NCBI RefSeq assembly: GCF_000482245.1
Contig: NZ_AWNH01000049.1
Coordinates: 1 to 64,000, forward strand
Origin: Leptolyngbya sp. Heron Island J
Lineage (GTDB): Bacteria > Cyanobacteriota > Cyanobacteriia > Phormidesmidales > Phormidesmidaceae
Direction: 5' to 3'
DNA: 64,000 nt
The notes under the pieces are model-generated. The model worked only from the letters and a program-made list of their open reading frames with translations, was not told where the DNA came from and did no database searches. The position numbers were made by a program, and so were the translations under genes. Below, piece by piece: positions 28,483 through 51,176 of the stretch (the stretch's first letter is position 1; each line of letters starts with the position of its first letter).

Positions 28483-28932
28483 ATGCCCATCCCCATTATC
28501 AAATTCAAAAAGCTCTCCCCCCAAGCCATCATCCCCAGTTATGCCCATCCCGGCGATGCTGGCGCTGATTTGGTCGCCATGGATGCTCATACCCTTGAAC
28601 CACTGCAACGTCTGGCCATTCCCACTGGTTTGGCCGTCGAACTGCCCCAGGGATATGAACTACAAGTGCGCCCCAAAAGCAGTTTGGCCCTCAAACATGG
28701 CATTACGGTGCTGAATACACCAGGGACCGTCGACGCAGGCTATCGGGGAGAAATTAAAGTAATCTTAATCAACCTTGGCCAATCAACCTTTGAAATCAAC
28801 CCAGGACAACGGATTGCCCAAATTGTTATTGCCCCAGTGATTCAGGCAGAATTTATGCTCGTAGATAGCCTGGGAGCTTCTCAACGGGGAGAGGGAGGCT
28901 TTGGTTCAACAGGGAAAACCTATGCCCAGTAG
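28483..28932 (+). CDS. dut: dUTP diphosphatase
   Basis: The 149-residue trimeric dUTPase hydrolyses dUTP to dUMP. All five motifs are visible: AHPGDAGADL, RPKSSLALKHG, NTPGTVDAGYRGE (catalytic Asp and the uracil-stacking Tyr), RIAQIVIAP and RGEGGFGSTG. Full length. It follows the MBL-fold gene by 13 bp and probably shares its mRNA. Confidence 0.97.
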   Translation: MPIPIIKFKKLSPQAIIPSYAHPGDAGADLVAMDAHTLEPLQRLAIPTGLAVELPQGYELQVRPKSSLALKHGITVLNTPGTVDAGYRGEIKVILINLGQSTFEINPGQRIAQIVIAPVIQAEFMLVDSLGASQRGEGGFGSTGKTYAQ

Positions 28933-31994: not shown

Positions 31995-31998
31995 CGCT

Positions 31999-34900: not shown

Positions 34901-36258
34901 TCACCTTTGCGAATACTGGTCCCTCTGGCAATGTGGATATTAATGGATTGGGAGAGCAATTAACGGTGAGTGATGTCGCCCTCATCGTTGCGCTGCAGGA
35001 CTCATTTGTTTCACCCATTGGTGACTTGCAAGAGATTACTCTGGATAATGAGACCAACTTCACCTCCGGCCAAACGGTAATCGCAAGTCTTGGCGACCTA
35101 ACCCTCAATAATGTTTCTATTGCAGCCAGTGCCAACAGCACTCAACCGTCAGGTAACGTCACGCTCATCAGCCCCGATCAGGTGACGATCCTCAACAGCC
35201 AAATCAACAGCAATGCCAGTAATACAGGACTAGCTGGTAACATTGAGATCAACGCTGAAAGTCTCACCCTGGTAGATACCAGCCTATCCACATCTACAAC
35301 GGGGCCGGGCCGGGCCGGGGATATCAGACTAAATCTATCGGATATCCTAATCCTTGATGGCAGTACCCTGACGTCCAGCACTGAACTGGACTCAACAGGC
35401 CAGGGGGGCAACATTGAGGTGAACGCTACGGTTCCAAACCTTGAGGCCACGCTGCGCAATGGTGCCCAACTGGCGGTCAACTCTGCAGGTCAGGGCGAAG
35501 GGGGGAATATCAGCGTCACCGCCCAACGGCTCACCCTCGACGATGCCAGCCAAATTAATGCCACCACCCTCAGCAGCGATGGTGGCAATGTAACCCTGAT
35601 GCTTGGAGATTTGCTACTGTTGCGCAATGGCAGCGAGATTTCCACAACCGCCGGAATCGCTGAGGCTGGTGGCGATGGCGGTGACATCTCAATTACGTTA
35701 GCAGATGGCTTGATTGTGGCCCTGCCAAACGAAAACAGTGACATTACGGCCAATGCCTTTGAGGGGGACGGCGGCAATATTCAGATTACGGCTGACGGCA
35801 TTGTCGGACTGCAGTTCCGGCCTGAGCTAACACCGTTGAGTGACATTACCGCCAGTTCTCAGTTTGGGGTGGATGGTATTGTCCAAATCCAAACCCCAGA
35901 CCTGGACGCCAGCCAGGGCACTGTCGAGTTACCCAGCGACCTGACGGATCCAAGCCGCCAAATCTCTACAGGATGTTTGGTGGCAGTCGACAACTCACTT
36001 GTAATCACTGGACGGAGCGGCTTGCCAGAAAATCCAAATATCCTAGATAACCCTGCAATCTGGGAAGATTGGCGTCCGTTAGAAACTGAAAGTGAGATGA
36101 GGTCAGCTATACCGACTGTATTGATGCCGACTCTCCCCACTGCCCTTAGAGAGGCAACAGAAATGGTTAGGAACACCAATGGCCAGGTCCAGTTTGTCGC
36201 GACCCGACCAGATACGAACATAGGTCCGACCAATACCCACTGTCTCTCATTGGGTTAA
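31999..36258 (+). CDS. TPS exoprotein B, repeat-rich
   Basis: The 1419-residue product has a signal peptide (ALTCQFIPPAHA end), a TPS domain (NPNGIILGPNAQLDIAGS) and a beta-helix. The middle (about 420-890) is built of variable-length units ending in SGNSGNGGDI...SSNSGDITIN, nearly identical at DNA level (GACAGTGGTAATGGCGGC). It ends with the same C-terminal module as exoproteins A and C. ATG at 31999 is chosen over an upstream frame start at 31978, which would overlap gene A. Its two mature cysteines are Cys1326 and Cys1415. The frame overlaps the converging kinase gene by 12 bp. Confidence 0.9.
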   Translation: MHNKHSYLVSMAGLMVSLGAIAPALTCQFIPPAHAQIIPDGTLSTTVTSSDNQNFVIENGDRTGNNLFHSFDTFSIPTNGSAVFNNPTDIENIFSRVTGLSLSNIDGLLQTIGTTNLFLLNPNGIILGPNAQLDIAGSFTASTANSLVFADGAEFSAIAPEPSLLSISVPLGLQLNTQPQGDIESRGQLEAGQDLTLLGQNLYLEGEIIAGNDLTLQAQDTVTMKDTLVYSGNDLTVQGGQGIDILALNRLEPVPFASGGNLTLISDGNISADTHFESGGNFQFLMLAGTPATVVSFYDPIILADGNVVLGDYTGVALKLEAKGSIDAGDIVITGPDTTLSADGSGSDVNLLASSRAAILRAGVNADPGQPPGSITVSSINTSDVTGGDGGPIILEAAGDITANGFFLGPLDIPITLGSFSFADGEDSGTGGAITISSGSGNISLQGNRQSTFPFNGFANGPITVGSFSLSARNDSGRGGPIRITADAGKIDIVGDLNTQSYAFQNDDSSLPAGDSSTGGDITLVSNIGDITIDGLLTTLSGSFGSFPGSSPAGNSRDAGNIFLSSGSGDIRLVNNQGGRILDTTSKSQALGSIAGDSGDGGNITVSSTTGDIVTDGAFVVAGSSSEAFAPTAASSSGNSGNGGNIIFSSTSGNITINSVLQSSAGSGGNSSVSHTSGSSGDGGNISITSDSGTITLNPPDTEFFRLFPESAFISSIARSSGGLNTEVQISESVTISSGNSGNGGDIAVASNSGDITINTNLRSESSSVVTSRLESSDDSGNGSNITLTAGDSGNGGDITVSSNSGEIIVNAGLSSKSSSSSQPATDSFSGGIAFFSGDSGNGGDIVVSSNVNDITINASLSSASSTSATANSNSLGDTGNAAGGGGITISTRSGNIQVNEDLLTLSNATSGTAGRGGGIALSSRGGAVVGNDNSLIVVSIGEQPEATGAGGAVTLEAHQAISGLNILTFANTGPSGNVDINGLGEQLTVSDVALIVALQDSFVSPIGDLQEITLDNETNFTSGQTVIASLGDLTLNNVSIAASANSTQPSGNVTLISPDQVTILNSQINSNASNTGLAGNIEINAESLTLVDTSLSTSTTGPGRAGDIRLNLSDILILDGSTLTSSTELDSTGQGGNIEVNATVPNLEATLRNGAQLAVNSAGQGEGGNISVTAQRLTLDDASQINATTLSSDGGNVTLMLGDLLLLRNGSEISTTAGIAEAGGDGGDISITLADGLIVALPNENSDITANAFEGDGGNIQITADGIVGLQFRPELTPLSDITASSQFGVDGIVQIQTPDLDASQGTVELPSDLTDPSRQISTGCLVAVDNSLVITGRSGLPENPNILDNPAIWEDWRPLETESEMRSAIPTVLMPTLPTALREATEMVRNTNGQVQFVATRPDTNIGPTNTHCLSLG

Positions 36259-39200
36259 CAATTTTTGGATTGATAGAACTAACTGTTTGAGTTTAACCGG
36301 TTTACTGAGATACAGGTTAGCCCCAGCCTCTAAACAACGCTTTCGATCTTCTGTCATGGCAAGTGCTGTCAGTGCAATGATAGGGATTTCAGCCAGAGCA
36401 GGTAATTGACGGATGTGTTGGATGGCCGTTAAACCATTCATGTCAGGCATATGGATGTCCATGAGAATAATATTGGGTAGTTCAGCCTGCGCTAACGTAA
36501 TGGTAGCTTGACCACTTTTTGCCACTTGCAGACGATAGCCTTTAGCACGCAGATAACTGGAGAAGGTGAGGATATTAGCCTCATTGTCTTCTGCCAATAG
36601 GATGAGGGGAACTGCGGTGGATTGTCCGCTTTCAGGAGTTGCTGGACTGGACTCTGGCACAATTTGAGAGCTGGGATCACTAAGCTCAGAGATGATATAG
36701 GGCAGCTCAATAGCAAAACAGCTACCTACACCAACTTCACTAGTGACAGCGACTTGTCCTCCATGGAGTTCAACAATCCGTTTTACCAGAGCTAGACCCA
36801 GTCCAGTGCCTTCATATTGTCGATTGAGGTTACTTTCAATCTGGACAAAGGGTTGAAACAGTTTTTTCAGATTGTCTGGAGTAATGCCAATACCTGTATC
36901 GGTCACGGTAAAGCGTAGATATTTTTGGTTGCGGTTCTCGTCTGATGGTAATGGCTCCACTTCGAGGGTGATGTGTCCCCCTGCTAGGGTAAATTTCACA
37001 GCGTTGTTCAACAGATTAATCAAAACCTGACGAATCCGCCGTTCATCAACCACTATATCCGGTAAGTTTGAGGGGACTTTCTGGTGAAGCTGGATACTTT
37101 TTTTCAGGGACTGTTCTTCGATAAAGGCCAAACTAGACTTACAGAGGTATGTCACCGCAACCGGAGCATATTCTAGCTCGATTAGCCCTGACTCAACCTT
37201 GGCTAAGTTGAGAATGTCGTTGATCAGTTCCAGCAGATGCGATCCACTCCGTTCAATAGTCTGTAACGCTTGCAGTTGTTGCCCATTAATCTGACCGACA
37301 ACCTTCTCTTGTAGCACCTCCGTCATCCCCAGAATCGCATTCAGTGGTGTACGTAGCTCGTGGCTCATATTGGCCAAGAAAGTACTCTTGGCCTCGTTGG
37401 CAGCTTCAGCTTGTTCTTTGGCAACTTTCAGCTCATAAGCCCCGGCTTCGGCCTGTTCTTTGGCAATTTTCAACTCATAGGTTCGTTTTGTCACTTGAGC
37501 TGCGAGTTGGCGATTATAACTTTCGATTGCTTGAACTCGCCAGCGATAAATTCCTGTGATTAATCCTAATCCTGACACCACTAACAGACTGCGAAACCAA
37601 ATGGTCTGCCACCAGGGTGGTGTAATCGTAATTTGTAGGGCTCTACCGTTTTCATTCCAATAGCCATCGCTGTTACTGGCTTTGACCCGGAAGGTATAGG
37701 TACCCGGATTGAGGTTAGTGTAGGTAGCAAAGCGACGACGACTGTCGACCCAGGTCCAATCTTGATCAAAGCCCTCCATCTTATAGGCATATTGATTGTG
37801 TTCAGGAAACCAGTAGCTCAACGCCGCAAAGGCAATGCTAAAGACTGACTGATTATGGCTCAGGGTAATTTGATTGGTAACACTGATGTCCTGGGTTAAT
37901 GGGGACCCCTGCTGACCAAGAGAGATCGACTGGTTGAATAGTTGAAAGTCGGTGAACACGACCGGCGGTGCAAAACTATCCTCGATTAATTGATTTGGGT
38001 AAAACGTATTAAAACCAGCAGTGCCGCCAAAAAACATCTCTCCCGCTGGGCTTTTGTGATGAGCACTGGCAGCAAATTCTTGACCTTGTAAGCCGTCATG
38101 GATACCATAATTTCTAAACGTGAGCCCCCTGGGGTCAAATTTGGAGAGCCCTCGATTCGTGCTCACCCACAGATAGCCTTGGTCATCCTCCAGGATGCCG
38201 CGAATATTCCCACTGGGTAAACCGTCTTTCTCTCGATAATTGGTAAATGTGCCCGTGGTTGGCTCTAATCGACTTAACCCGGCGGATGTCCCAATCCATA
38301 ATGTGCCGGTGGCATCTTCGTGAATCGAATATATAGTATTGCTTGCCAGGCTGTTCTGAAGGTCGTTTGGATTGTGCTGATACCGAGTGAACTGTTCGGT
38401 CTGGGGGTCAAATCGAGTCAAGCCTTTGTGCCAGCTGCCGAGCCATAGAATACCGGACGGGCTAATGTGAATAACTCGAACATTATTATCACTCAGACTG
38501 TTGGCATCATCGGGGTCGTGGCGGTAAGCGCGAAACGTTTCTGTAATCGGATCAAAATGATTGAGACCACCCGCTCGGGTTCCCACCCAAATGCTGCCGT
38601 CGCCGTCAACCTGAATGGATAGGACACTATCATCTGGATCGCTTAAGCTGTTGACATCCTCTGGATCGTGCCGGTAGGTAGTAAACCACCCCGTGGTTCG
38701 GTCCAAACGATTCAATCCTGTGTGGCCAGCCCCACCCACCCAGAGATTACCTGCCGCATCTTCATCAATGGCGAGAAATTCTGTACCAGCCCCCAGGCTG
38801 TGAGGGTTAGTCGGTTCATGCAAGTAATGGGTAAATTGTCCTGACTGGCGGTCCACTTTTTCCAGACCGCTCTCAGTACCCAACCACAGTAAGCCGTCGC
38901 TGGTTTCATGAATAGCCTGAATAGAAGGGTGGTTCAGTAACTTCGGATTAATGGGATTGTGCTTATAGTGGGTGAACTTGGCAGGAGATGGATTAAATAT
39001 ATTCACCCCGCAACACCAACTCCCGACCCAGATGATGCCGGAACGATCTTGATACGTCGTGATCTTGTCGCTAGCACTGATGGTGGATGCATCCAGCGGA
39101 TTGTTTACCAAATGGGTCCATTGCTCCTGATTGGGCTCACGCCTGGCAAAACCGTGTCTACCATTTACCCACATCGTTCCTGTCTGATCGACTAGGATGC

Positions 39201-40047
39201 CTCTGAGTTCAGGATCGAGGACAGTAGGAGCCGCATAAGGCTGGCGGGTGAAGCGTTCTGTTTCTGGATCTAGGGTATACAGTCCCGATTTGGCAGTGAA
39301 CCAGAGCAAACCCGAGGCATCTTCATAAAAGTTCTGGTTATTGCCCCAGTCGGCGTTCAAGCTTTGCTCCGTTTTAGGATCGACTGGGTAACGGGTAAAC
39401 TGCCCCGTGGCTGGATCAAGGCGGTTAAGTCCCGAATGAAACGTGCTTACCCAAAACTGACCCTCCCTATCTTCATAAATGCCGACGACTTTGTCGCCAC
39501 TGAGGCTGGTAGGGTCATTGGGGTCATGCTGGTAGCGGGTGACGTGACCTGTATCTGGATTAAAGCGGTTGAGCCCACCACCCCAGGTGCCAACCCACAT
39601 AGTCCCAGCCCGATCTTGGTAGACACTAACAATATCATCGCTACTTAAACTGTTGGCATTGTCAGGGGCATGACGATGATGAGTAAATGTTTGGCGAGTG
39701 TGATCAAAGCGATTAAGACCGCCTCCGAGAGTGCCGACCCAGAGAAAGCCCTGCTGATCGATGGTGAGCGTACTTACAAGGTTGTGACTCAAACTGTTAG
39801 GGTCGTCCACGTCATTTTTATAGATCACCGTGGTACCGCCGTCGTAGCGGGTCAACCCATCCCAGTGGCCAAACCACATAAAGCCCTGGTTATCTTGCAC
39901 AATTGCCCGCACTCGATTGCCCGCCAGGCCGTCTTCTTGGGTTAAGTGATTAAACTTGACGTCATCAGGTCTGTGAGCAAAGGAAGGAGATACCGCATTC
40001 AAAACAAACCCAAGGGTGGTGATTAAAACGGCAATCCTTTTTAACAT
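36247..40047 (-). CDS. Propeller-sensor hybrid histidine kinase (Reg_prop, Y_Y_Y)
   Basis: The 1266-residue protein has a signal peptide (to about 24), about 14 Reg_prop blades in two seven-bladed propellers (residues 30 to about 690; LWVGTLGGGLNRFD, TMWVGTWGGGLNRFNPDTG), a Y_Y_Y domain (about 725-795), one membrane helix (about 805-825), a coiled linker, HisKA with His896 (NMSHELRTPLN), HATPase (NLLNNAVKFT, GTGLGLALVKRI) and a receiver with Asp1197 (LMDIHMPDMNG). The architecture matches the hybrid two-component systems that bind extracellular glycans in Bacteroidetes, but lacks the AraC output. All catalytic motifs are present. It sits inside the exoprotein island on the opposite strand. 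Confidence 0.93.
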   Translation of the reverse strand: MLKRIAVLITTLGFVLNAVSPSFAHRPDDVKFNHLTQEDGLAGNRVRAIVQDNQGFMWFGHWDGLTRYDGGTTVIYKNDVDDPNSLSHNLVSTLTIDQQGFLWVGTLGGGLNRFDHTRQTFTHHRHAPDNANSLSSDDIVSVYQDRAGTMWVGTWGGGLNRFNPDTGHVTRYQHDPNDPTSLSGDKVVGIYEDREGQFWVSTFHSGLNRLDPATGQFTRYPVDPKTEQSLNADWGNNQNFYEDASGLLWFTAKSGLYTLDPETERFTRQPYAAPTVLDPELRGILVDQTGTMWVNGRHGFARREPNQEQWTHLVNNPLDASTISASDKITTYQDRSGIIWVGSWCCGVNIFNPSPAKFTHYKHNPINPKLLNHPSIQAIHETSDGLLWLGTESGLEKVDRQSGQFTHYLHEPTNPHSLGAGTEFLAIDEDAAGNLWVGGAGHTGLNRLDRTTGWFTTYRHDPEDVNSLSDPDDSVLSIQVDGDGSIWVGTRAGGLNHFDPITETFRAYRHDPDDANSLSDNNVRVIHISPSGILWLGSWHKGLTRFDPQTEQFTRYQHNPNDLQNSLASNTIYSIHEDATGTLWIGTSAGLSRLEPTTGTFTNYREKDGLPSGNIRGILEDDQGYLWVSTNRGLSKFDPRGLTFRNYGIHDGLQGQEFAASAHHKSPAGEMFFGGTAGFNTFYPNQLIEDSFAPPVVFTDFQLFNQSISLGQQGSPLTQDISVTNQITLSHNQSVFSIAFAALSYWFPEHNQYAYKMEGFDQDWTWVDSRRRFATYTNLNPGTYTFRVKASNSDGYWNENGRALQITITPPWWQTIWFRSLLVVSGLGLITGIYRWRVQAIESYNRQLAAQVTKRTYELKIAKEQAEAGAYELKVAKEQAEAANEAKSTFLANMSHELRTPLNAILGMTEVLQEKVVGQINGQQLQALQTIERSGSHLLELINDILNLAKVESGLIELEYAPVAVTYLCKSSLAFIEEQSLKKSIQLHQKVPSNLPDIVVDERRIRQVLINLLNNAVKFTLAGGHITLEVEPLPSDENRNQKYLRFTVTDTGIGITPDNLKKLFQPFVQIESNLNRQYEGTGLGLALVKRIVELHGGQVAVTSEVGVGSCFAIELPYIISELSDPSSQIVPESSPATPESGQSTAVPLILLAEDNEANILTFSSYLRAKGYRLQVAKSGQATITLAQAELPNIILMDIHMPDMNGLTAIQHIRQLPALAEIPIIALTALAMTEDRKRCLEAGANLYLSKPVKLKQLVLSIQKLLTQ

Positions 40048-40248
40048 AACGGGTGTGGAACAGCATCGGGATAGTGCTTGCCGACACTAACTTTTTCTAG
40101 GCCTTTCTCTAATAAACTTTTCTAATCATAACTTTACTGCTTTAATTTCAAAACCTCGAATTCCTGAAAAAATTAAATCTTTAAAGAGAAAATACAAGGT
40201 TCTTGCGTAGCGGCAGGTACCCGTCCTAAGAAAATAAAGATATCTTCT

Positions 40249-42942
40249 ATGTATAGGACAAAAACAACACACGCTGATGATATCTGGATGCTCATGAAGA
40301 CTGTATCTTGCCAAACGCTGCTTCAGCAGATGCAACATCTTGTCATCGTTTTAGCAAGAATGCGTCCCCAGTTACAGCAGCCATCTAGAAGCCTTTATCT
40401 ACCTATTTTTACTCTCTGTGCGATCGCGCCAGCCTTGACTTGTCAGTTCGCACCCCCAACCCACGCCCAAGTCATTGCCGATGGTACCTTCTCCACCAAT
40501 GTTGCTTCATCTGACAACCAAAATTTTGTGATTGACGCTGGCGATCGCGCTGGCAATAATCTCTTCCATAGTTTTGACACATTTTCTATTCCCACCAACG
40601 GTTCAGCCATTTTCAACAATGCCATCGATATTAAACATATCGTCAGCCGGGTTACAGGTATCAACACATCTGATATCGATGGGCTAATTCAGGCCAATGG
40701 TACAGCTAACCTCTTTTTACTCAATCCCAATGGCATCCTCTTTGGCGAGAATGCTTCGCTGGATATCGGTGGTTCTTTTTTGGCCACCACGGCTGAGAGT
40801 ATTCTCTTTAGCGATAATGTTGAATTTAGTACCACCGATGTGACTTCGGCCTCTTTACTCACGATATCGACTCCCATGAGGTTGCAATTTGCCGCTAATC
40901 CCAGCCCAATTACGGTAGAAGGTACCGGACATAACCTGACATTGGACTTAAATACATCTTCACCGATTCGTGACAATCGCCCAGTGGGATTACAGGTTCC
41001 TTCTGGACAAACCTTAGCCTTCATTGGAGGGGACATCTTGATTGAGGGTGGTCATCTCACAGCGAATCAAGGTCGTATTGAATTAGGAAGTGTGGCCCAA
41101 TCGGGCTCAGTTTCTCTCATGCCCACATCCGATGGATTTACTCTAGACTATGCGGCCATAGATAACTTTGGCGATCTCAGATTCACCCAAGCTGCTTCAG
41201 TCGAAGTGAGTGGCGAGGGTAGTGGTAATTTGCACTTCCAAGGCAGAAATATTTCTGTCTTAGAGACTTCAGCCATTATCAGCAACGTCCTGGGTGCAGA
41301 CTCAGGTGGGGAGATTCGTGTTCGAGCTTCTGAATCAGTTGACATTATTGGCATTCAGACCGAAGACTTTCCCAGTGCTTTTTTTAATCAAGGGGAAGCG
41401 GTCAGTACTGGTAATGTTGGTAATTTATCGATTCAAACAGGACGGTTGCAGGTAGTCGATGGTTTTGTTTCCAATGCTATTTCTGGTGCTGGGAATGGCG
41501 GAAACTTAACGATAAAGGCCAATGACATCACGTTAATTGGTAACAATGTTTTCCAAGGAAACTATAACACGGGACTATTGGCGCAGGTTTTCTCAAGCGG
41601 GACAGGACAGGGAGGAGCATTGAGCATTGATGCTGATAATCTCTACATGCAAAGCTCATTGATCTCTAATGCTACCCTCGCAGAGGGTAATGCCGGGAAC
41701 ACTGTCTTACAAGTCGATACGTTGCGACTGACAGAGAGTTCACAAATTTTTTCTGGGACAATAGGCCAGGGGAATGGTGGGAACATTTCCATTGACGCAA
41801 ACGAGATCACAATAACGAGTACAGAGAAAGACGCTCCGTTTTTGGCTGGCATATACACTACTTCATTAGAAGACGGTAATGCTGGAAACATTGATATACA
41901 AGTCAATAATCGTCTACAGCTTACGGGGGCAGCACGAATCTCCTCCTTGACTAGAACGGCTGGAACGGCTGGAAATATCATGCTCCAAGCGGGTGAGATT
42001 GAGGTGAATGGAGCTGGAGCTACCGGAGGGGGTGGCATTTCTGACGATGGACAGTTGACCAGTCGGATTACTGCCTTCAGTGAAACAGACTTTGCAGCTG
42101 GCAAAATCGACATTACGGTCGAGACATTGCGAGTCACTAATCAAGGGCTGATTAGTGTCAGCAACCTTGAGGGGGGAGATGCCAGCGACCTGTCCATTAG
42201 GGCAGACCAGATTCTACTAACCGATGGCGGAACATTGCAAGCAGAAGTGGCTGCTGGTAATCAGGGCAACATTCTCCTCATGGCTGACAGCCTCCTGTTC
42301 CTGAAGAGGGGGGGACTCATTTCCACTAATGCCACCAATAGAGCTACTGGCGGCAACATTGTCATTGAGGCCCCAGTGATCTTAGGGTTAAACAACAGCG
42401 ACATTGTTGCCAATGCTGTACAAGGAGATGGCGGCAATATTGCAATTACCACCCAGGCCTTATTGGGTCTCCAATTTCGCAATTTTCGCACATCTGAGAG
42501 TGACATTACCGCCAGTTCTCAGTTTGGGTTAGATGGCATTGTCCAAATCGATACCCCCGATCTTGAACCCAATCAGGGGCTGGTTGAGCTACCTAGCGAG
42601 CTGACTGATTCAAGTAACCAAATTTCTACAGGCTGTTTGGTTGCAGCGGATAACTCATTAACGCTCAGCGGACGTGGTGGTTTGCCAGACGCGCCAGACA
42701 CCCTCAACAGCTTGGCAGTCTGGGAAGATTGGCGTCCCTTGGAAACGGAAGCAAGGACAGCAACTGCACCCAGAGATATTGCTCGTACTTCTTTTAGAGA
42801 GGCAACAGCAATGGTGATCGATGTGAACGGTCGGGTTCAGTTTGTGGCCTCAACAACTGAGAGGTTGAAGCCACCTATGGCAGCGAATCCTTTGATTCGC
42901 TGTGGTTCTAGAGACAATGTATGGGGACAGGAGAATGAATAG
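40249..42942 (+). CDS. TPS exoprotein C
   Basis: The 897-residue paralogue of exoprotein A is similar along nearly its whole length (LGLNNSDIVANAVQGDGGNI, LLMADSLLFLKRGGLISTNA). It has a signal region (to about 75 from this start; an ATG at residue 15 or 17 would shorten it), a TPS domain (NIDGLIQANG-like DIDGLIQANG, LLNPNGILFGENASLDIGGS), a beta-helix and the common C-terminal module. Mature cysteines are Cys796 and Cys885. Its stop codon overlaps the CHAT gene start (GAATGAATAG), so both are translated from one mRNA. A 201-bp spacer separates it from the divergent kinase. Confidence 0.9.
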   Translation: MYRTKTTHADDIWMLMKTVSCQTLLQQMQHLVIVLARMRPQLQQPSRSLYLPIFTLCAIAPALTCQFAPPTHAQVIADGTFSTNVASSDNQNFVIDAGDRAGNNLFHSFDTFSIPTNGSAIFNNAIDIKHIVSRVTGINTSDIDGLIQANGTANLFLLNPNGILFGENASLDIGGSFLATTAESILFSDNVEFSTTDVTSASLLTISTPMRLQFAANPSPITVEGTGHNLTLDLNTSSPIRDNRPVGLQVPSGQTLAFIGGDILIEGGHLTANQGRIELGSVAQSGSVSLMPTSDGFTLDYAAIDNFGDLRFTQAASVEVSGEGSGNLHFQGRNISVLETSAIISNVLGADSGGEIRVRASESVDIIGIQTEDFPSAFFNQGEAVSTGNVGNLSIQTGRLQVVDGFVSNAISGAGNGGNLTIKANDITLIGNNVFQGNYNTGLLAQVFSSGTGQGGALSIDADNLYMQSSLISNATLAEGNAGNTVLQVDTLRLTESSQIFSGTIGQGNGGNISIDANEITITSTEKDAPFLAGIYTTSLEDGNAGNIDIQVNNRLQLTGAARISSLTRTAGTAGNIMLQAGEIEVNGAGATGGGGISDDGQLTSRITAFSETDFAAGKIDITVETLRVTNQGLISVSNLEGGDASDLSIRADQILLTDGGTLQAEVAAGNQGNILLMADSLLFLKRGGLISTNATNRATGGNIVIEAPVILGLNNSDIVANAVQGDGGNIAITTQALLGLQFRNFRTSESDITASSQFGLDGIVQIDTPDLEPNQGLVELPSELTDSSNQISTGCLVAADNSLTLSGRGGLPDAPDTLNSLAVWEDWRPLETEARTATAPRDIARTSFREATAMVIDVNGRVQFVASTTERLKPPMAANPLIRCGSRDNVWGQENE

Positions 42943-45559
42943 ATTGAGACAATCAAACACCTGGTCAATCTATCGAACCCTCTGTTGGTTCGGCTTGGGT
43001 CTCTGGTTGGCCATAGCCCCAACCATGCTCCCCATGAGCGCGGCCACCCTGCATGCAAATTCTCAAAACCCAGCCCAGCTCAGCTCATCTACGACTGATA
43101 AAATCAGCCTGATTGAACAAGGGAGACATTATTACCAATCAGGCCGGTTTGCTGAAGCCCTTGGCCTCTGGCAACAAGCAGCGCAAACTTACCAGGCCCA
43201 AGGAAACCTAACAAACCAGGCCTTGAGTCTGAGCTACCTGGCCTCAGCCTATAAGGAGCTGGGGCAATGGCAGGCGGCAGAAACGGCTATTGCCCAAAGC
43301 TTAGAGCTGCTACAACAGGCTAATACCGACGCTCAAATCACCACAAACGCGGCCATCATTCTGGCCCAAGCCTGGAACACCCAGGGCAGTCTGCAACTGA
43401 CCATGGGTAATCCGGAAGCAGCACTGACTAGTTGGCAACAGGCTGAGGCCATTTACGCTGACAATGATGATGCCCAGGGTCAGTTGGGCAGTCAACTTAA
43501 TCAAGCCCAGGCCTTACAAAGCTTAGGGCTATATCGACAGGCCCGCACTCGACTGGAAGAGATGAATCAGCAGCTCCAGTCTCAACCCAGCTCACAGCTC
43601 AAAGCAAAAGCGTTGCAAAACCTGGGTGTAACGTTACAACGAGTAGGCGCATTTTCGGACTCGCTCAATACGTTGCAACAAAGCCTGGCGATGACCCAGC
43701 AGTTAGGGGCAGATACGAGTGCAGTGTTATTGGGGCTAGGGCATACCTGGCAGGGATTAGCGGAAAACGATAAGGCATTGGATACCTATGGGCAGGCAGC
43801 GGCTGTGGCCACAACTGCGATCGCAAAAACCCAAGCCCAACTCAGCCAGCTCAGTCTGCTCCTGGAAACTAACCAAATCACTGCTGCCCAGACACTTGTG
43901 CCCCAGATTCGAGCCCAGCTGCCGGATTTACCCGCTAGCCGCTCAGCCATTTATGCCCGCGTTAACCTGGCCCAAAGTTTGCTCAAGCTAGCCGAGCAAG
44001 CCCCATCTGGCGGCTCTGAGATGGTCCAGGTGCTGTCCACCGCCATCCAGCAGGCCCAGGAACTCAACGATGTCCGGGCAGAATCCTATGCCCTGGGCCA
44101 ATTAGGCCAGATTTATGAACAAGCGGGTCAATGGGCCGATGCCCAATTACTAACCGAAAAAGCCCTGGCCATAATCCGAGGACTTCATGCCTCAGAAATT
44201 GCCTATCAGTGGCAGTGGCAGCTGGGACGGATTTTGTGTCAGGGGGATATTGCCTGCACTAAGACAGACAAGCGTAGGAGTGCGATCGCAGCTTATACAG
44301 AAGCCATTAGTCAGCTAGAACTTTTGCGCACTGATTTAGTCGCTAACGCCCAGATCCAATTCTCCTTTCGCGAGCAAGTAGAGCCTGTCTATCGCGAGTT
44401 TGTCACATTGTTACTAACGCCATCGTCCGGCCAAACCGAGATCAGCCAGAATCATCTCAAAAAGGCCCGCGACATCATTGAAGCCCTGCAGCTAGCCGAG
44501 TTAGACAACTACTTCCAATCCGCCTGTCTCGATGTAGAATCCCAGCCCATTGACCAAATCGATCGGGCCGCCGCTGTCCTATACCCCATCGTCCTACCCG
44601 ACCGACTTGCCGTTATACTCGCCTTACAAGACCAGCCCTTGCATTACTATGAAACCGTTCTACCCCAGGCTGAAGTCGAAAGCAGTCTCAGCCAGATGCG
44701 GCAGTCCCTGAGCCTGGCCTTTCCCAATCAGCTGCGGCTACAAGTTTCACAGCAGCTTTATGACTGGCTGATCAGACCAGCCGAAGCTTACTTTACCGAC
44801 CACGAGATCCAAACCCTTGTCTTGGTTCCAGATGGGCTGCTACGTAGCTTACCCATCGCAGCTCTCCACGATGGTCACCACTATCTGATTGAGCAATATA
44901 GCATTGCCATTAATTCTGGTTTACAGCTACTGGAAACCCCAACCTTAGACCCCGAGGGATTTAAACTCTTGCTGGGGGGGCTAACGGAAGCACGTCAAGG
45001 CTTTTCTGCTTTACCTGCCGCTGCCCTTGAAATAGAAAAGATTAGCGCTCAAGTGGCATCTCAGCTATTTCTTAACCAAGAATTTACTCAAAAAAATTTA
45101 CAAACACAGCTGCAACAGTCTAATTCCTCTGTAGTACACCTAATCACCCATGGCCAGTTTAGTTCTAATCAGAATGACACCTTTCTTCTGGCCTGGGATC
45201 AGAAGATTAAAACCCCAGACTTGAGTAAGGCCCTGCAAACCAGACAGCTCAGTGCCACCAATCCCATCGAACTATTGGTGCTCAGCGCCTGCCAGACGGC
45301 GACGGGAGACAATCGCGCCGGGTTAGGGCTGGCGGGCTTGGCCCTCCGCTCCGGTGCTCGCAGTACCCTGGCTAGCCTGTGGTCTGTGGATGATCGATCA
45401 ACGGCTGAGCTGATGGTTAAGTTCTATAACGCACTCAAGCAGCCAGGCACCCCCAAAGCCGCCGCACTACAACAGGCTCAACTGGCTGTATTACAGCAAG
45501 AAGACTACGATCACCCATTTTTTTGGGCGGCCTTTGTCATGGTAGGAAATTGGCTTTAA
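42935..45559 (+). CDS. Secreted TPR-CHAT protein with intact His/Cys dyad
   Basis: The 874-residue protein has a signal or anchor helix (about 15-37), TPR-like helices (about 60-500) and a C-terminal CHAT domain (about 590-874). CHAT domains are caspase-like (clan CD): candidate His739 (HLITHGQF) and Cys786 (LSACQTATGD), both present, followed by GLAGLALRSGARSTLASLW. It may cut or regulate a partner on the periplasmic side. AGGAG directly before ATG 42935 and an 8-bp overlap with exoprotein C support this start and tight coupling. The truncated TPR gene at 1706 is a relative that lost this domain. Confidence 0.9.
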   Translation: MNRLRQSNTWSIYRTLCWFGLGLWLAIAPTMLPMSAATLHANSQNPAQLSSSTTDKISLIEQGRHYYQSGRFAEALGLWQQAAQTYQAQGNLTNQALSLSYLASAYKELGQWQAAETAIAQSLELLQQANTDAQITTNAAIILAQAWNTQGSLQLTMGNPEAALTSWQQAEAIYADNDDAQGQLGSQLNQAQALQSLGLYRQARTRLEEMNQQLQSQPSSQLKAKALQNLGVTLQRVGAFSDSLNTLQQSLAMTQQLGADTSAVLLGLGHTWQGLAENDKALDTYGQAAAVATTAIAKTQAQLSQLSLLLETNQITAAQTLVPQIRAQLPDLPASRSAIYARVNLAQSLLKLAEQAPSGGSEMVQVLSTAIQQAQELNDVRAESYALGQLGQIYEQAGQWADAQLLTEKALAIIRGLHASEIAYQWQWQLGRILCQGDIACTKTDKRRSAIAAYTEAISQLELLRTDLVANAQIQFSFREQVEPVYREFVTLLLTPSSGQTEISQNHLKKARDIIEALQLAELDNYFQSACLDVESQPIDQIDRAAAVLYPIVLPDRLAVILALQDQPLHYYETVLPQAEVESSLSQMRQSLSLAFPNQLRLQVSQQLYDWLIRPAEAYFTDHEIQTLVLVPDGLLRSLPIAALHDGHHYLIEQYSIAINSGLQLLETPTLDPEGFKLLLGGLTEARQGFSALPAAALEIEKISAQVASQLFLNQEFTQKNLQTQLQQSNSSVVHLITHGQFSSNQNDTFLLAWDQKIKTPDLSKALQTRQLSATNPIELLVLSACQTATGDNRAGLGLAGLALRSGARSTLASLWSVDDRSTAELMVKFYNALKQPGTPKAAALQQAQLAVLQQEDYDHPFFWAAFVMVGNWL

Positions 45560-45663
45560 TGGCTAAAAACAGCAATAGTGACTGTAAAGGAATTTAATTC
45601 CTCAGCAATATACTAAACAGGTGTCAAAAAGCGTAGTTAGTTGTCAAAATCGATGCATTCATC

Positions 45664-46422
45664 ATGCTATCTATCCCTCTAAAGCTAGGAACCGTTGTTA
45701 CTGCCATTGGGTTCCTTAGCCTGCTGGGTGGCACAGTTGAGGCTTTCTCCTATCAGACTGCCCCCTCACAGCTGTTAGCCCTGGACCCCCAAAGTTTTGA
45801 ATTTATCCCCCCAGAGGATGATGGTCAGCCTCGTACCAATCGAGCCAGCGGCAGACGCGATCAGCTCTGTAATAACTCAGCATCTGGCTTAGCCCTGACG
45901 TTACTGATTCCACCTAGCAATCAGGGAATAACCACGGCAGCTCATCCCATATTTCTGGCCTATTTACCTCAGACCTCAGCGCAACAAGCTTTCCTCACCC
46001 TAGAGGGTGAGAATAATGATTACCTTTATCACACCCTGGTTGATCTACCTGAAACAGCTGGGATTGTTAGTTTTGCGATTCCTGAGACCGCACCAGTTCT
46101 AGAACCTGATCAACATTACAAGTTTTCCCTAGGGATGATCTACGGTCAAACCCTTGACCCCAATGACCCGGTCATCGAGGGCTGGATTCAACGGATTACC
46201 CCCGATACTGTTGCTGAATCTCAGCCATCCCAGGAGGCATCGTTTGAGCTGGGGGCCTGGTACGCCAGAAATGGCATTTGGTTTGATGCCTTAGCATTAT
46301 TGGCTGATTTGCGTGCCACAGAACCGGATAATTTAGATGCGATCGCAGCCTGGGAAGAACTACTCCAGTCCGTCGGGCTTGACAGGGTGGGAACTGCACC
46401 ACTGCTAAATCCTGTCGACTAA
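45664..46422 (+). CDS. DUF928 protein
   Basis: The 252-residue secreted protein has a signal peptide (to about 26) and a DUF928 domain (about 60-245; LALTLLIPPSNQGITTAAHP, then LPETAGIVSFAIP and LEPDQHYKFSLGMI). The C-terminus is helical (WYARNGIWFDALALLADLRA). DUF928 is largely cyanobacterial and is often found near CHAT and exoprotein genes; its function is unknown. It is spaced 104 bp after the CHAT gene and 98 bp before the CHASE2 kinase. Confidence 0.88.
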   Translation: MLSIPLKLGTVVTAIGFLSLLGGTVEAFSYQTAPSQLLALDPQSFEFIPPEDDGQPRTNRASGRRDQLCNNSASGLALTLLIPPSNQGITTAAHPIFLAYLPQTSAQQAFLTLEGENNDYLYHTLVDLPETAGIVSFAIPETAPVLEPDQHYKFSLGMIYGQTLDPNDPVIEGWIQRITPDTVAESQPSQEASFELGAWYARNGIWFDALALLADLRATEPDNLDAIAAWEELLQSVGLDRVGTAPLLNPVD

Positions 46423-46520
46423 TGTGTATTCCAGGGTGATACGATCCATCCGCACTACCGCAGACGTGGGCCTATCTCTACCGCCAGGAGCAACGTTCAA
46501 ACTTACGGCATACTCAATTT

Positions 46521-49088
46521 ATGTGGTCTAAGCAGGGACAGAGAATTTGGAAATGGCGGCTTTCTATCTTATCTGCCTGCAGCATTACCGGTCTGATTTT
46601 GGGTCTAAAATTCCTGGGAGCCTTTCAGTTACTAGAATGGGCGGCCCTTGATAGCTGGTTCCGATTACGCCCCGTGGAGGAAAGCGATTCGCGCATTGTA
46701 ATTATTGGCATTAATGAGCAAGACATTACCGGAGACACTCAATGGCCCCTCACCGATGCCCAGCTAGCCGAACTAATCGATCAGGTAGCCGCTCAGAGCC
46801 CTAGAGCCATTGGTCTAGACCTTTACCGAGATGTTCCCCTAGATCCCGGTCATCAAGACCTGGTACGGGTGATGGCATCAACACCACAGCTGATCGGTGT
46901 GGAGAAAGTTTTAGGCATTCCTGTAGCACCGCCACCTAGTCTGGAGCAAAAAGAGCAGGTCGGCATTGCTGATTTTGTATTAGATGCGGATGGCAAGGTC
47001 CGTCGAGGACTCCTTTCAACTCGTACACCGGATAATCAAATCAAAGTGAGTTTGGGGGCAAGGCTGGCACTCACCTATTTAGCCGCCGAAGGGATCTCAC
47101 TTAAAGGGCTCAATGAACCTTCCGAAAGCTACCAGCTAGGTAAAGCCGTCTTTCAACGCTTTGAAACCAATGATGGCGGCTATGTAGGAGCAGATGCCGC
47201 TGGCTATCAACTCTTAATCAACTTTAGAGCGGGCAGCTGTACCGATACTACCCCAAACTGCCCTTTTGAAATGATCTCTATGGGGGAGTTTTTATCCGGC
47301 CAGGTGCCTCCCGATTTATTACAAGATCGGATTGTTTTGATCGGTGTAACAGCCCCCAGTCTGCAAAACCACTTTTACAATCCCTATAGCTATGGTGAAG
47401 CGATCTCCATCTCCGGGGTTGAAGTCCATGCCCACCTGACCAGTCAGATTATCAGCGCCACATTAGATGGACGAGCTTTAATTCAAACATGGCCTGACCC
47501 CCTTGAATGCCTGTGGATTTTTCTGTGGTCCAGCGGTGGCACCCTGTTGGGTATCCTGTGCCTTAATCGACGACGCATTACTGTCGGTCTTGTGTGGTTG
47601 GTAGGAACTCTTATACTCCTTCTCAGTAGCCTGGTCATCGGAGCCTATGTAGCTTTTTTAGCCGGATGGTGGATTCCTGTTGTCCCGCCCCTCTTAGCCC
47701 TAACAGGAACTGCTGTTATCAGCACCACCCACTTATTCTGGAAGAATCTAAAGGACTCTTACCACAAACTAGAACAAGCTCACCAACAGTTAGCCGACTA
47801 TTCTCAAACCCTAGAATACAAAGTCAAAGAACGCACCGTTGATCTTCTGGCTGCGAAAGAAGCGGCTGATCGAGCGAATCGTGCTAAAAATGACTTTTTA
47901 GCAAACATGAGTCATGAGCTGCGCACCCCGCTCAACACTATTCTGGGGATGACCCAAGCCCTGGAAGAACAAATTTTAGGTGAGCTCAACCCCAAACAGA
48001 CAAAAGCATTACGGGCAACTGAACGCAGTGCTCACCATCTGCTAGAGCTGATCAACGACATTCTAGACTTAGCTCGGGTTGAGTCAGGAATGTTAGAGCT
48101 AGATTATGCGCCAACAGCTGTTGTCCCTCTGTGTCATTTTTGTCTAACCGTCGTCAAACAACAGGCACACCAAAAGGGCATACAGCTCGACTCTAAGCTA
48201 TCCCATACGCTGCCAGCCTTTGTTATGGATGAACGGCGAATGCGTGAAGTACTGATCAATCTCTTGAGCAATGCAGTTAAGTTTACACCGGCTGGAGGAC
48301 GCGTCACCCTAGAAGTTGTTTATCAACAGCAATCCTCTCTTTTAGATCAGACAGATATATCAGAGACTCCCCCCCGCGATACCTTGAGATTTATTGTCAG
48401 CGATACTGGCATTGGTATTAAGCCAGGCTATATCGATCGATTATTTAAACCATTTGTCCAAATTGATAGTGCCCTCAACCGCCAATACACAGGTACGGGC
48501 CTGGGGCTGGCTTTGGTTAAACGGCTTACCGATCTCCATGGCGGTACCGTCACCGTCACGAGTAAAGTGGATGTCGGCAGCACCTTTACCGTCGAAATTC
48601 CCTGTAAAGCAGTGAGCCCACCTGCATCTAGTGGGAGGAGCCGACAAGATTCTGCCCAGGGCAACCTTAATTCTCTGGCTAGTGAGCCACGGGAAACTAT
48701 CCTATTGGTTGAAGATGATCCCGATAATATTACTGTTCTCAAAAGTTATCTCACCGCCAAAGGCTATTCTGTCTGTGTTGCTAACAATGGTCGTCAGGCA
48801 ATCTCGGCCATATTAACCACTGAGCCTGATTTGGTCTTGATGGATATACAAATGCCGGGAATGGATGGCCTAGAAGCCATGCAACGCATTCGACGTGAGC
48901 CGACATTGACCAATATCCCCATCATTGCGGTTACAGCATTAGCCATGAAAGGGGATCGAGAGCGATGTTTGGCGGCAGGTGCAAATGACTACCTGAGCAA
49001 ACCGGTGAACTTAGGCCAACTAGTCATCACTATTCAGCGACTTTTAGCGGAGCGGGAGCCTTCAATACAAAGTCACCATTTTTTCTAG
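46521..49088 (+). CDS. CHASE2 hybrid histidine kinase
   Basis: The 855-residue protein has one N-terminal helix (about 12-32), an extracellular CHASE2 domain (about 40-320; DSWFRLRPVEESDSRIVIIG, DGKVRRGLLST, QDRIVLIGVTAPSLQNHFYN), three membrane helices (about 330-410), HisKA with His465 (NMSHELRTPLN), HATPase (NLLSNAVKFT, GTGLGLALVKRL) and a receiver with Asp775 (LMDIQMPGMDG). Its kinase and receiver are close to those of the propeller kinase, suggesting a shared origin or common output. It is the last gene of the plus-strand exoprotein-CHAT-DUF928 series. Confidence 0.93.
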   Translation: MWSKQGQRIWKWRLSILSACSITGLILGLKFLGAFQLLEWAALDSWFRLRPVEESDSRIVIIGINEQDITGDTQWPLTDAQLAELIDQVAAQSPRAIGLDLYRDVPLDPGHQDLVRVMASTPQLIGVEKVLGIPVAPPPSLEQKEQVGIADFVLDADGKVRRGLLSTRTPDNQIKVSLGARLALTYLAAEGISLKGLNEPSESYQLGKAVFQRFETNDGGYVGADAAGYQLLINFRAGSCTDTTPNCPFEMISMGEFLSGQVPPDLLQDRIVLIGVTAPSLQNHFYNPYSYGEAISISGVEVHAHLTSQIISATLDGRALIQTWPDPLECLWIFLWSSGGTLLGILCLNRRRITVGLVWLVGTLILLLSSLVIGAYVAFLAGWWIPVVPPLLALTGTAVISTTHLFWKNLKDSYHKLEQAHQQLADYSQTLEYKVKERTVDLLAAKEAADRANRAKNDFLANMSHELRTPLNTILGMTQALEEQILGELNPKQTKALRATERSAHHLLELINDILDLARVESGMLELDYAPTAVVPLCHFCLTVVKQQAHQKGIQLDSKLSHTLPAFVMDERRMREVLINLLSNAVKFTPAGGRVTLEVVYQQQSSLLDQTDISETPPRDTLRFIVSDTGIGIKPGYIDRLFKPFVQIDSALNRQYTGTGLGLALVKRLTDLHGGTVTVTSKVDVGSTFTVEIPCKAVSPPASSGRSRQDSAQGNLNSLASEPRETILLVEDDPDNITVLKSYLTAKGYSVCVANNGRQAISAILTTEPDLVLMDIQMPGMDGLEAMQRIRREPTLTNIPIIAVTALAMKGDRERCLAAGANDYLSKPVNLGQLVITIQRLLAEREPSIQSHHFF

Positions 49089-49169: not shown

Positions 49170-49688
49170 TCAAAAGTCATCTAAAACATCTGGGTCAATA
49201 TCCTCATCCTCAAGCATGTCAGACAGCGAGGTGGGATTTGTATCCACCGGCTTGGGAGGGATAATTTTCTCAAACATCATGCTTTGAGAAAGGGAAGAGT
49301 GACCGTTGCCCCCATGGCCATTGGTGCCGGTAGCGCCATGACCGTTGGTCGCACTGCTACCGCCCAGGGATTCACTCAGTTTAGGACCATAGGGTTCGCC
49401 TGCCAAAAAATGTCGTCGGATTTGAAAAATTCTAAACTCTAGTTCATCAATGGCATTACGAGCCAGCACCTGAGCTTCTTCTTTAGAGACAGTATCCTCA
49501 TAGGCCCATGGCAGATAGTAGGCTTTCAAAGCTCGAATCACCGACTCGCGCATATTCACCAGTTTGTTGTCACGCAGATAATCGATTATCCGCCCTTCAA
49601 TCGTGTCAGGATCGGAGCTAATGCTAAATGAAACCCGTTTTCTAGTACTAGGAGTATCTTTTTTAGACGAATCTTTCTTCTTAACCAC
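49170..49688 (-). CDS. ParR-like ribbon-helix-helix adaptor
   Basis: The 172-residue protein has a Lys/Ser-rich start, then RKRVSFSISSD, a beta strand followed by two helices (DTIEGRIIDYLRDNKLVNMR, ESVIRALKAYYLPWAYE), as in ribbon-helix-helix ParR/CopG proteins. A second helical part follows (VSKEEAQVLARNAIDELEFR), then a Gly/Asn/His linker and an acidic tail ending DPDVLDDF. ParR uses its C-terminus to bind ParM filaments. GTG at 49688 preceded by GGGAGGAG is the likely start. It overlaps the actin gene stop by 8 bp (translational coupling). Possible CorR equivalent. Confidence 0.72.
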   Translation of the reverse strand: MVKKKDSSKKDTPSTRKRVSFSISSDPDTIEGRIIDYLRDNKLVNMRESVIRALKAYYLPWAYEDTVSKEEAQVLARNAIDELEFRIFQIRRHFLAGEPYGPKLSESLGGSSATNGHGATGTNGHGGNGHSSLSQSMMFEKIIPPKPVDTNPTSLSDMLEDEDIDPDVLDDF

Positions 49689-50796
49689 GACTCCTCCCAG
49701 CAGCAAGTTTTTGGAATTTTAGGGCCAGCCACTTGGCACCACCATAGCAGTCACAAAAGCGCAGCTGATCAATGTCCGATTCTAGCTCTAGATTGGCCGC
49801 TACTTCGTCTTGTAAGTCTTCTAACCAATTGACCGTACAAAATGTTGACCGCTCTTCAAAGTACTCTTCCAAATAATCTCGCAGCTGGGTCGCGGTCCCT
49901 CCGCTGATCAGTACCTCATAGTTAGGTACACTAACCGAAGCCAGCCACTCATTCAGGCGATATTTCACCAGCTCCCAATAGTAAACGGTGGCCTTTTCGC
50001 GACGCTCAGCCAGGGGATAGCCTTTGCGGGGACGGTTAGGAAATACAACCCGCGCTGAGTTGTTGATCAAGGCGTCATAGAGAAACGGATCATCTGAATT
50101 GCAGGGTAAGTCTTGAGCCACAGCCTTCAGCAACTGCTGATAGCCCAGGTGCTCGGTACTGCTGGGTTCACCCTGGGGCGGTCGCCCGCCGTTAAATAGC
50201 AAAAAGCTCAGGTCTCGATGGCCAAACATGAGCACAACAAATGTCCTAGTTGAACGTTCTTTTTGTTGCGATCGCTGCACTTTACGCCACTGCACCAGCC
50301 CTGCCGCCTCGGGCAGCACCTTCACATGGCCAAAGTCTAGAAAAACATCCCGACCGCGATAGGTAAACATCTTGTGTCCCAAGATCTCACCCGTCAGCGC
50401 CCTATAGTCAGTCAGATACTCATTAAACGGCAGCGCAATCCCCACATCCAGTGTCAGCCTCTCTAGATCATGCTGATGGGCAAATTCACCCATCACCCCC
50501 AAGGCTCGAATGTGTGCCAAAGCACTTTTGGGTAGGCTGCTCGTAGCTTTGTTAGGACGCCCCTGGGCATCAATCCCCAGAGCATAGGCTGGCGTCTCCG
50601 GGTCCAGCTGCAAATAGCTGACTGACTCCAAGCCAGAACCGATTTGTTCACCCTGAGCTTCAATAATAGTTAGCTCCGAGGGCGGCATATCCGCCACCAG
50701 CGGTGGACACTGATAGGAATAGAACCGCTCACCATCATTGAGAACAGCCTTGGTGCCGGAGCTACCTAAGTCGATAAAACACTGATATTTGGCCAT
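49681..50796 (-). CDS. ParM-like actin-family ATPase
   Basis: The 371-residue protein has the actin/Hsp70 phosphate-1 loop FIDLGSSGTKAVL at the N-terminus and an adenosine motif VLISGGTATQLRDYLEEYF near residue 300. The phosphate-2 region FVVLMFGHRDLSFLLFNGG lacks the usual Asp of DxGxxT, which is unusual. The gene order actin then small RHH protein is that of type II partition loci (parM-parR). A chromosomal context without any plasmid or phage gene suggests the cytoskeletal CorM/CorR system described in multicellular cyanobacteria (from memory) rather than plasmid segregation. A recent plasmid integration is the alternative. Confidence 0.78.
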   Translation of the reverse strand: MAKYQCFIDLGSSGTKAVLNDGERFYSYQCPPLVADMPPSELTIIEAQGEQIGSGLESVSYLQLDPETPAYALGIDAQGRPNKATSSLPKSALAHIRALGVMGEFAHQHDLERLTLDVGIALPFNEYLTDYRALTGEILGHKMFTYRGRDVFLDFGHVKVLPEAAGLVQWRKVQRSQQKERSTRTFVVLMFGHRDLSFLLFNGGRPPQGEPSSTEHLGYQQLLKAVAQDLPCNSDDPFLYDALINNSARVVFPNRPRKGYPLAERREKATVYYWELVKYRLNEWLASVSVPNYEVLISGGTATQLRDYLEEYFEERSTFCTVNWLEDLQDEVAANLELESDIDQLRFCDCYGGAKWLALKFQKLAAGRSRG

Positions 50797-50820
50797 GGGG
50801 ATATGGGCAGACAGCTGCCA

Positions 50821-51020
50821 ATTAGTACATTAGTACGATTTTCTGGTGAATCTATTCTAGTCCAACAGGCGTTGACAATATATCGCAGAGAATACGTTTT
50901 ATTGCTAGATTGCCCTAACCCACAAACGTATCGGTATGCATTCAGCTAAACCGCATGACGACATTAATCAGGAATCTAGACTAACTCTCTAGACTCACCG
51001 CTACATATAGCGCTCAGTCT
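50821..51020. promoter_or_regulatory. Leader of the parM-like gene with short repeats
   Basis: In the 380-bp gap upstream of the actin-like gene, TTAGTACA/TTAGTACG stand in tandem (50822-50837) and TCTAGACT occurs twice 13 bp apart (50975 and 50988), with a partial AGTCTA at 51016. In type II systems the centromere-like repeats lie here. The repeats are too few and short for a firm parC call. Confidence 0.25.
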
Positions 51021-51176
51021 AATGTTGAAATACTAAAAGGCATTATGGTACCTGTTAAAGGTATTTTTGGGAAGTGATTTTCTGCTCTATCGTCCTTAGA
51101 ACGCAAATCGCCACTATTGAATACACCTGGTGAGGGTTAGGTGTAACTGGCATACAAGACGTTACCCACTTTTTCT

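Follow-up and report, generated by a model that had tools for sequence, protein, structure and literature searches.

In a ParMR module, filaments of an actin-like protein grow while an adaptor holds the filament ends and a DNA site, and CorMR is the known example of such a plasmid segregation machine remade as a cyanobacterial cytoskeleton. An actin-like gene and an adaptor gene in Leptolyngbya sp. Heron Island J raise the question of whether this pair is CorMR, a plasmid partition module, or a module of plasmid kinship that serves its host in another way. The first-pass annotation of the 64,000-nucleotide stretch analysed here (the window; from contig NZ_AWNH01000049.1) took the pair for a chromosomal ParM/ParR system with an unusual phosphate-2 motif, possibly CorM/CorR itself. 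Our analysis bears out the chromosomal ParM/ParR-type pair and the unusual motif but not the assignment to CorM/CorR: the pair is a real, conserved, chromosome-encoded ParMR that had been wrongly filed as CorMR. In the open-licence literature, we recognised no paper describing it.

Gene anatomy and chromosomal setting

Both genes lie on the minus strand, in the order parM then parR, and the dUTPase gene adjoins them in related genomes:

49681..50796, minus strand: parM-type actin-like gene (ATG start, TAA stop, 371 aa), with matches to the ParM/StbA family
49170..49688, minus strand: parR-type adaptor gene (GTG start at 49688-49686, TGA at 49170, 172 aa)
28483..28932, plus strand: dut (dUTPase), which adjoins the pair in three genus relatives and lies 20 kb off here

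Gene order, coupling and start codon are as first described, both reading frames having been found: the GTG start of parR falls 8 bp inside parM, with GGGAGGAG immediately upstream, and three genus relatives keep both the GTG start and the 8-bp overlap. The actin scores 21.8 bits against Pfam ALP_N, below the cut-off of 26.3, and the Leptolyngbya sp. Heron Island J adaptor finds no convincing family in Pfam or NCBIfam.

The source assembly holds 8,063,028 bases in 119 contigs, the pair's own contig measuring 65,050 bases, and the wider setting of the locus is best seen in its relatives. In Adonisia turfae CCMR0081 and Leptolyngbya PCC 7375, which form one subclade with Heron Island J according to the available text of PMC8225149, the pair sits beside dut with aroC nearby, on contigs of 7.69 and 8.16 Mb, respectively; on a 12.9-kb contig of MAG.088 it also adjoins dut, with aroC close (neighbour names were assigned by Pfam on the window copies). 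Within the window, Pfam identifies chorismate synthase, tryptophan synthase alpha, dUTPase and FolB, and no plasmid genes were recognised by eye in the list of open reading frames, so that the earlier remark that none lie near holds for the stretches tested. The homologous loci on the 7.69- and 8.16-Mb contigs, together with the chromosomal neighbours, place the pair on the chromosome, as had been proposed, and led us to set a plasmid location aside.

In contrast to the three genus relatives, dut and the pair are here set about 20 kb apart; the interval (29331-49088) codes for two hybrid sensor kinases (CHASE2 in one, propeller repeats in the other), a CHAT/TPR protein and three secreted proteins with TPS domains. 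Elsewhere in the window, an IsrR antisense RNA (7378-7555; Rfam RF01419, 94 bits) lies opposite an isiA-like gene that combines PSII (CP43-like) and PsaL domains and is followed by flavodoxin.

Distribution and selection

Actins of the window type occur in 13 of the 63 genomes of the family, at 48-94% identity, and the order comprises the same 63 genomes; across an even sample of the phylum (386 genomes) the only one found is that of the window's own genome, the next best match reaching 144.5 bits and 31% identity. Half of the genus genomes, four of eight, carry the pair. Two genus members that lack it (G397 and G402) have dut with no pair beside it, no dut was found in the remaining two, and two of these four pair-less genomes are only 70-75% complete. 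As it was not found in four of eight genomes, two of which have the dut locus resolved, the pair is not essential to the genus. Chromosomal-type flanks are also seen in G442 (GAPDH and an Sdh subunit) and G389 (CoaE, HemD and photolyase), which indicates that the cassette occupies more than one chromosomal site.

In all five g148 relatives (54-55% identity), a divergently oriented TrwC-type relaxase gene has its start 198-377 bp ahead of parM; the one tested matches Pfam at E 1e-84, two of the five are cut off where the contig ends, and one relative has ParA-like and integrase genes on the same 40.5-kb contig. A TrwC-like relaxase likewise stands near four of six widely fetched loci of the sister set (B, defined below), including a broken copy in this genome. 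In that copy (L075, 6893-12195, on the genome's contig C108), a B-type ParM relative with a broken reading frame is accompanied by an adaptor and by a TrwC-like relaxase; the repeat test given below covered its intact relatives. The five relaxase neighbours in the g148 relatives would suit a pair left behind by a conjugative or mobilisable element and able to assist transfer by a relaxase whenever the cell has such an element, as would the stimulation of the TraI relaxase by ParM and ParR of plasmid R1, reported in the available text of PMC4949242. Near the pair in the genus, however, no relaxase was recognised (by BLAST to the window genes and by eye), and both genes are strongly conserved, which makes this explanation improbable for the pair itself; a relaxase-linked role may possibly have been the older role of the relaxase-linked members.

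Selection on the pair was gauged by Nei-Gojobori dN/dS among the four genus members, with six pairs per gene. The ratios for parM (0.021-0.031), which are rough because dS is near saturation in five of the six pairs, compare with 0.011-0.060 for aroC and 0.010-0.039 for corM, and those for an M23 peptidase, a beta-lactamase-fold gene and dut are 0.063-0.126, 0.057-0.155 and 0.047-0.19 (four of six pairs computable), respectively. For parR the range is 0.039-0.089, with changes mostly in the linker. Hence parM is constrained as strongly as aroC and corM and is under strong purifying selection. Such constraint is not expected of a decaying remnant, and with its low dN/dS we set aside the reading of the pair as a relic or pseudogene.

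The closest parallel in setting comes from the chromosome-encoded ParMs (cParMs) of Desulfitobacterium and Clostridium, for which the available text of PMC12270681 describes polymerisation and, in one of two, that of Clostridium, a functional genomic parC. As far as that text goes, they too are ParMR cassettes on a chromosome, conserved within a genus and of unknown function; here the chromosomal cassette is present in four of eight genus genomes with dN/dS of about 0.02-0.03. The cParMs nevertheless belong to another sequence family, Dh-cParM1 being matched by profile only (E 9e-4).

Kinship with plasmid-type ParMs and relation to CorMR

Relatives were taken from the best 30 matches of each genome search, weaker matches not being used, and were sorted into set A, the window kind (13 rows); set B, its sister set (13 rows); set P, plasmid-type or unplaced relatives (31 rows); and CorM (20 of at least 49 CorM-like rows). 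Six of the P rows derive from plasmid records and 25 from other loci, at least five of these lying on contigs equal in length to plasmid records. Fragmentary or frame-broken relatives (L026, L056, L058 and L075) were excluded. In the resulting 77-row tree, A forms a clade of 13 rows (100/100) that joins B and a Chroococcidiopsis plasmid ParM (100/98), and the 20 CorM rows form a clade of their own (100/100) without A; a reduced tree of 64 rows, from which 13 long or odd rows had been dropped, returns the same grouping of A (99/95). Both stems are long, 2.0 for A and 3.4 for CorM. The phylogeny thus places the window actin with plasmid-type and relaxase-linked ParMs and lends no support to the kinship with CorM that the first-pass annotation had suspected, although AU tests do not reject a clade that unites A with CorM (p 0.115 and, with the reduced set, 0.076). 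Because these tests leave a sister relation possible, rejecting CorMR rests on other lines too.

Profile comparisons give the same order of kinship for both proteins. For the actin, A matches P at E 2e-47, B (12 rows, L077 being excluded from the B profile) at 1e-36 and CorM at 3e-13; for the adaptor, the corresponding values are 5e-16, 1e-6 and, against CorR, 5e-4, the last corresponding to an hhalign probability of 31%. A profile of 15 relatives matches CorM and five solved ParM sequences. With the A-P match and these matches to solved ParMs, the window protein has the features of a ParM-type actin, and the 8-bp overlap together with the profile match at E 5e-16 gives it a ParR-like adjacent adaptor.

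By tblastn, a relative at E <=0.001 is present in 54 of 72,556 plasmid records, all below 60% identity, the best-ranked plasmid match showing 29% identity over 93% of the query. In all six plasmid records that we viewed, a gene for a hypothetical protein follows that of ParM; four of the six also have a relaxase gene upstream of ParM on the other strand. Judged by sequence, the kin of the window actin are ParM/StbA proteins encoded on cyanobacterial plasmids and on elements that carry a relaxase. With plasmid ParM/StbA-ParR systems such as those of Chroococcidiopsis pB, L. boryana pLBX and pANACY.01, it has in common the gene order, a phosphate-2 motif without Asp but with Arg, and a related adaptor; it differs from them in being chromosomal, with no relaxase recognised and no repeats detected.

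CorMR itself is encoded elsewhere in the same genome. The system is called FcmB/FcmC of filamentous cyanobacteria in the available text of PMC12645912, and we read FcmB and CorM as one protein family. Against the NCBIfam FcmB model NF052678, with its cut-off of 300 bits, the window actin scores 29.5 bits and a locus on contig C36 of the same genome 624.9 bits, which identifies the latter as the organism's own CorM. The model finds matches above cut-off in 17 of the 63 family genomes, and six genomes hold both a window-type actin and a CorM recognised by it; the two systems therefore coexist in these six, and no replacement is seen. The resident CorM/CorR (L076, 7214-8735, on C36) lacks the first 34-37 positions of the FcmB model in its CorM, and CorR proteins of the genus show KSIRKSVSF close to the N-terminus, without the MF-x-W that opens many other CorR.

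The likeness of the pair to CorM/CorR (PMC12645912, in its available text; PDB 9rmi) is nonetheless real: a chromosomal parM-parR order, strong conservation, no upstream iterons found, and an acidic adaptor tail that ends in LDDF in 9 of 20 CorR and in a close variant in most others. The differences are the separate clade, the phosphate-2 Asp kept in 20 of 20 CorM, the separate CorM locus in this genome, and a CorR adaptor profile that barely matches the pair's adaptor. Orthology, or a close sister relation, between the pair and CorMR draws on sequence comparison with solved structures, in which CorM comes nearest (9rmi; E 3e-5 for the single sequence, 2.7e-28 with a profile), on the LDDF tail common to both and on the AU values for a joint clade. 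We consider it very improbable indeed, since the genome has its own CorM, the score is 29.5 against 300 bits, CorM forms its own clade at 100/100, and the phosphate-2 motif and the ParR profiles side with the plasmid-type ParMs. The suggested identity with CorM/CorR thus gives way to a separate CorM on C36 and a plasmid-type grouping, and we set orthology to CorMR aside, with family model, tree, motif and adaptor profile all against it.

Nucleotide pocket and adaptor

Three protein features bear on what the pair might do:

50212..50238, minus strand: phosphate-2 motif VVLMFGHRD without Asp, the Asp position being Met190
49509..49640, minus strand: putative ribbon-helix-helix (RHH) region of ParR (KRVSFSIS ... 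LPWAY), from pattern and alignment
49173..49214, minus strand: last 14 residues of ParR, LEDEDIDPDVLDDF, acidic, the presumed ParM-binding end, identical in four genus members

The window actin retains the phosphate-1 residues D9, G11 and K16 and the glutamate of PE163. Its phosphate-2 Asp is absent, as had been noted from the sequence, with Met190 in its place. The same Asp is missing from all 57 rows of A (13/13), B (13/13) and P (31/31), where Met, Val, Ile or Leu stands at the position and an invariant Arg follows four residues on, whereas CorM has Asp and Gln in 20 of 20 rows (VDIGHQT). With 57 of 57 relatives outside CorM lacking it, we dropped the notion that the absence of this Asp is peculiar to the window actin; in these alignments it is a mark of the plasmid-type ParM family, and as such it argues against identity with CorM. 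An AlphaFold model of ParM built with four near-identical rows reached a mean pLDDT of 38.

The proposal of an RHH adaptor with an acidic tail stands for the tail, an acidic C-terminus ending in LDDF, and only in part for the fold, for which Pfam and NCBIfam gave no family. The putative RHH fold rests on a sequence pattern and on the profile match to plasmid-type adaptors (E 5e-16); the basic N-terminus and the RHH-like pattern are kept, and the AlphaFold model (mean pLDDT 52) places helices at 30-40 and 44-58 with low confidence. A C-terminal LDDF is found in 13 of 13 A and 9 of 20 CorR adaptors, most of the remaining CorR having a close variant, and in none of 13 B or 30 P adaptors (of the 31 P loci, L025 had no adaptor found; the unrelated-looking adaptors of L021 and L030 are left out of the ParR profile and counted in this tally). 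No feature other than this tail links A to CorR, and the likeness may stem from convergence, from shared ancestry or from coincidence between acidic tails.

Leader and candidate DNA sites

Upstream of parM, two features are shared by four genomes:

50797..51095, minus strand: noncoding leader of some 300 bp ahead of the pair, conserved
50823..50836, minus strand: tandem GTACTAANGTACTA, candidate ParR operator, kept in all four genomes

Repeats were sought as 10-mers with at most one mismatch in the 500 bp upstream, a locus being positive with at least four copies unmatched in 30 shuffles. The result was positive for 13 of 13 B, 11 of 30 P, 0 of 20 CorM and 2 of 13 A loci, both A positives being near-identical relaxase-linked loci, and for none of the four genus members. 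Downstream of the pairs it was positive for 0 of 13 A, 0 of 13 B, 0 of 20 CorM and 1 of 31 P (L008 has no upstream DNA, hence 30 upstream P loci; L025, the sole downstream P positive, has a region that starts after parM). A second scoring over 400 bp upstream gave 13 of 13 B, 11 of 30 P, 1 of 20 CorM and 2 of 13 A. Upstream repeats bound by the adaptor, which the first-pass annotation had counted against a cell-shape role, were not found by a test of this limited reach; as it misses many P loci, absence in the genus is only suggestive of a true lack of parC-like repeats.

In the B set, loci such as L079 (upstream of 8731) carry 5-9 upstream repeat copies, often in 11-bp steps, the repeat being AAGTCGTGAT in most loci, and several of these ParMR pairs lie on megabase contigs beside a TrwC-like relaxase. 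These repeats look like a textbook parC, on what are probably integrative elements.

Compared with Adonisia in blocks of 50 columns, the window's leader shows 56-78% identity throughout its 300 bp, whereas that of corM is about as well conserved in its first 150 bp and falls to 50-56% beyond. Such conservation of the pair's leader speaks for some cis function. RNA structure prediction for the leader gave a z of -2.3 in the window, with change on both sides in only 3 of 56 predicted pairs. The tandem GTACTAANGTACTA beside parM is perhaps an operator; its 14 bp occur as a single exact copy in the genome, and as a dispersed genomic binding site it was not supported, six matches at up to one mismatch comparing with six in the reversed control. 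A palindrome-like GAGCGCTATATGTAGCG (50999-51015, minus strand) lies about 200 bp upstream of parM, and the four genus members retain it in part.

On this evidence we must weigh whether the pair still segregates or positions DNA, the 300-bp leader being a non-iteron or degenerate centromere bound by ParR, with ParM filaments that move this chromosomal site, as in cParCMR, or act in trans on a plasmid. Conservation over the whole 300 bp, the preserved tandem GTACTAANGTACTA and the basic N-terminus and RHH-like pattern of ParR speak for such a function; the chromosomal ParM of Clostridium sets a precedent with its functional genomic parC (PMC12270681, in its available text), and a short or degenerate centromere could escape a test positive in 11 of 30 P loci. 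Yet iterons are found in 0 of 4 genus members against 5-9 copies in 13 of 13 B rows, GTACTAANGTACTA occurs in exact form once in the genome with near copies equal to the reversed control, and the corM leader is about equally conserved in its first 150 bp. We therefore retain DNA positioning as a tentative alternative, possible rather than probable.

Recruitment of a plasmid actin into a cytoskeletal role for a second time and independently, like CorMR in kind and not by descent, to shape or organise the cells of these thin filaments, would account for a syndrome that resembles CorMR: a chromosomal pair with no iterons (CorM 0/20, and 1/20 in the second scoring), a long stem in the tree, dN/dS as low as that of corM, and an LDDF tail identical to that of 9 of 20 CorR. 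A pair found in just four of eight genus genomes, an adaptor with no membrane-targeting feature evident by eye, and coexistence with CorM in six genomes, with no replacement, fit it poorly, and we regard it as unlikely.

Discussion

Our work here sets apart a chromosomal ParMR lineage from the CorMR system encoded in the same genome. Its gene anatomy, kinship, chromosomal place, selection and lack of detected repeats are demonstrated by the observations above. With the CorMR reading unsupported and no upstream repeats found, neither CorMR nor plain plasmid partition fits the pair fully. We favour, with moderate confidence, the explanation that it is a ParMR module of the cyanobacterial plasmid and mobile-element ParM family, captured by the chromosome and retained for a host function distinct from that of CorMR.

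Under capture for a host function, the ParM-like protein would polymerise with ATP, and an adaptor dimer would bind the filament ends through its acidic LDDF tail; since most of the actin pocket and a conserved acidic adaptor tail are kept, filament formation and end binding are likely on sequence grounds. The putative RHH part of the adaptor would bind DNA, at least at its own promoter-proximal repeat. Lacking a multi-iteron centromere, the module would no longer segregate its own replicon in the classical way, and its cargo may have shifted, so that a chromosomal site or a non-DNA partner is positioned instead. In our ranking, this capture for a host function comes first, followed by DNA positioning through a site that escaped detection and, in third place, by cytoskeletal co-option.

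The interest of the pair, which we judge to be moderate, lies in its offering a second test case of a segregation actin that changes function. We put forward, as a rather doubtful proposition, that in multicellular cyanobacteria plasmid actins have become chromosomal host machines at least twice, in CorMR and, independently and inside a single family, in this pair. If this is true, filament turnover at an Asp-less phosphate-2 site with an invariant Arg should work differently, and the adaptor would have converged on the LDDF tail of many CorR, so that cross-talk with CorM in the same cell might occur. The family-wide loss of the phosphate-2 Asp also raises the question of how such actins bind and hydrolyse nucleotide. 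Relatives that still lie beside a relaxase, set against members of the genus in which the locus is there but not the pair, provide a before-and-after series, and a second chromosomal ParMR lineage would serve as a test case for how a segregation actin changes jobs.
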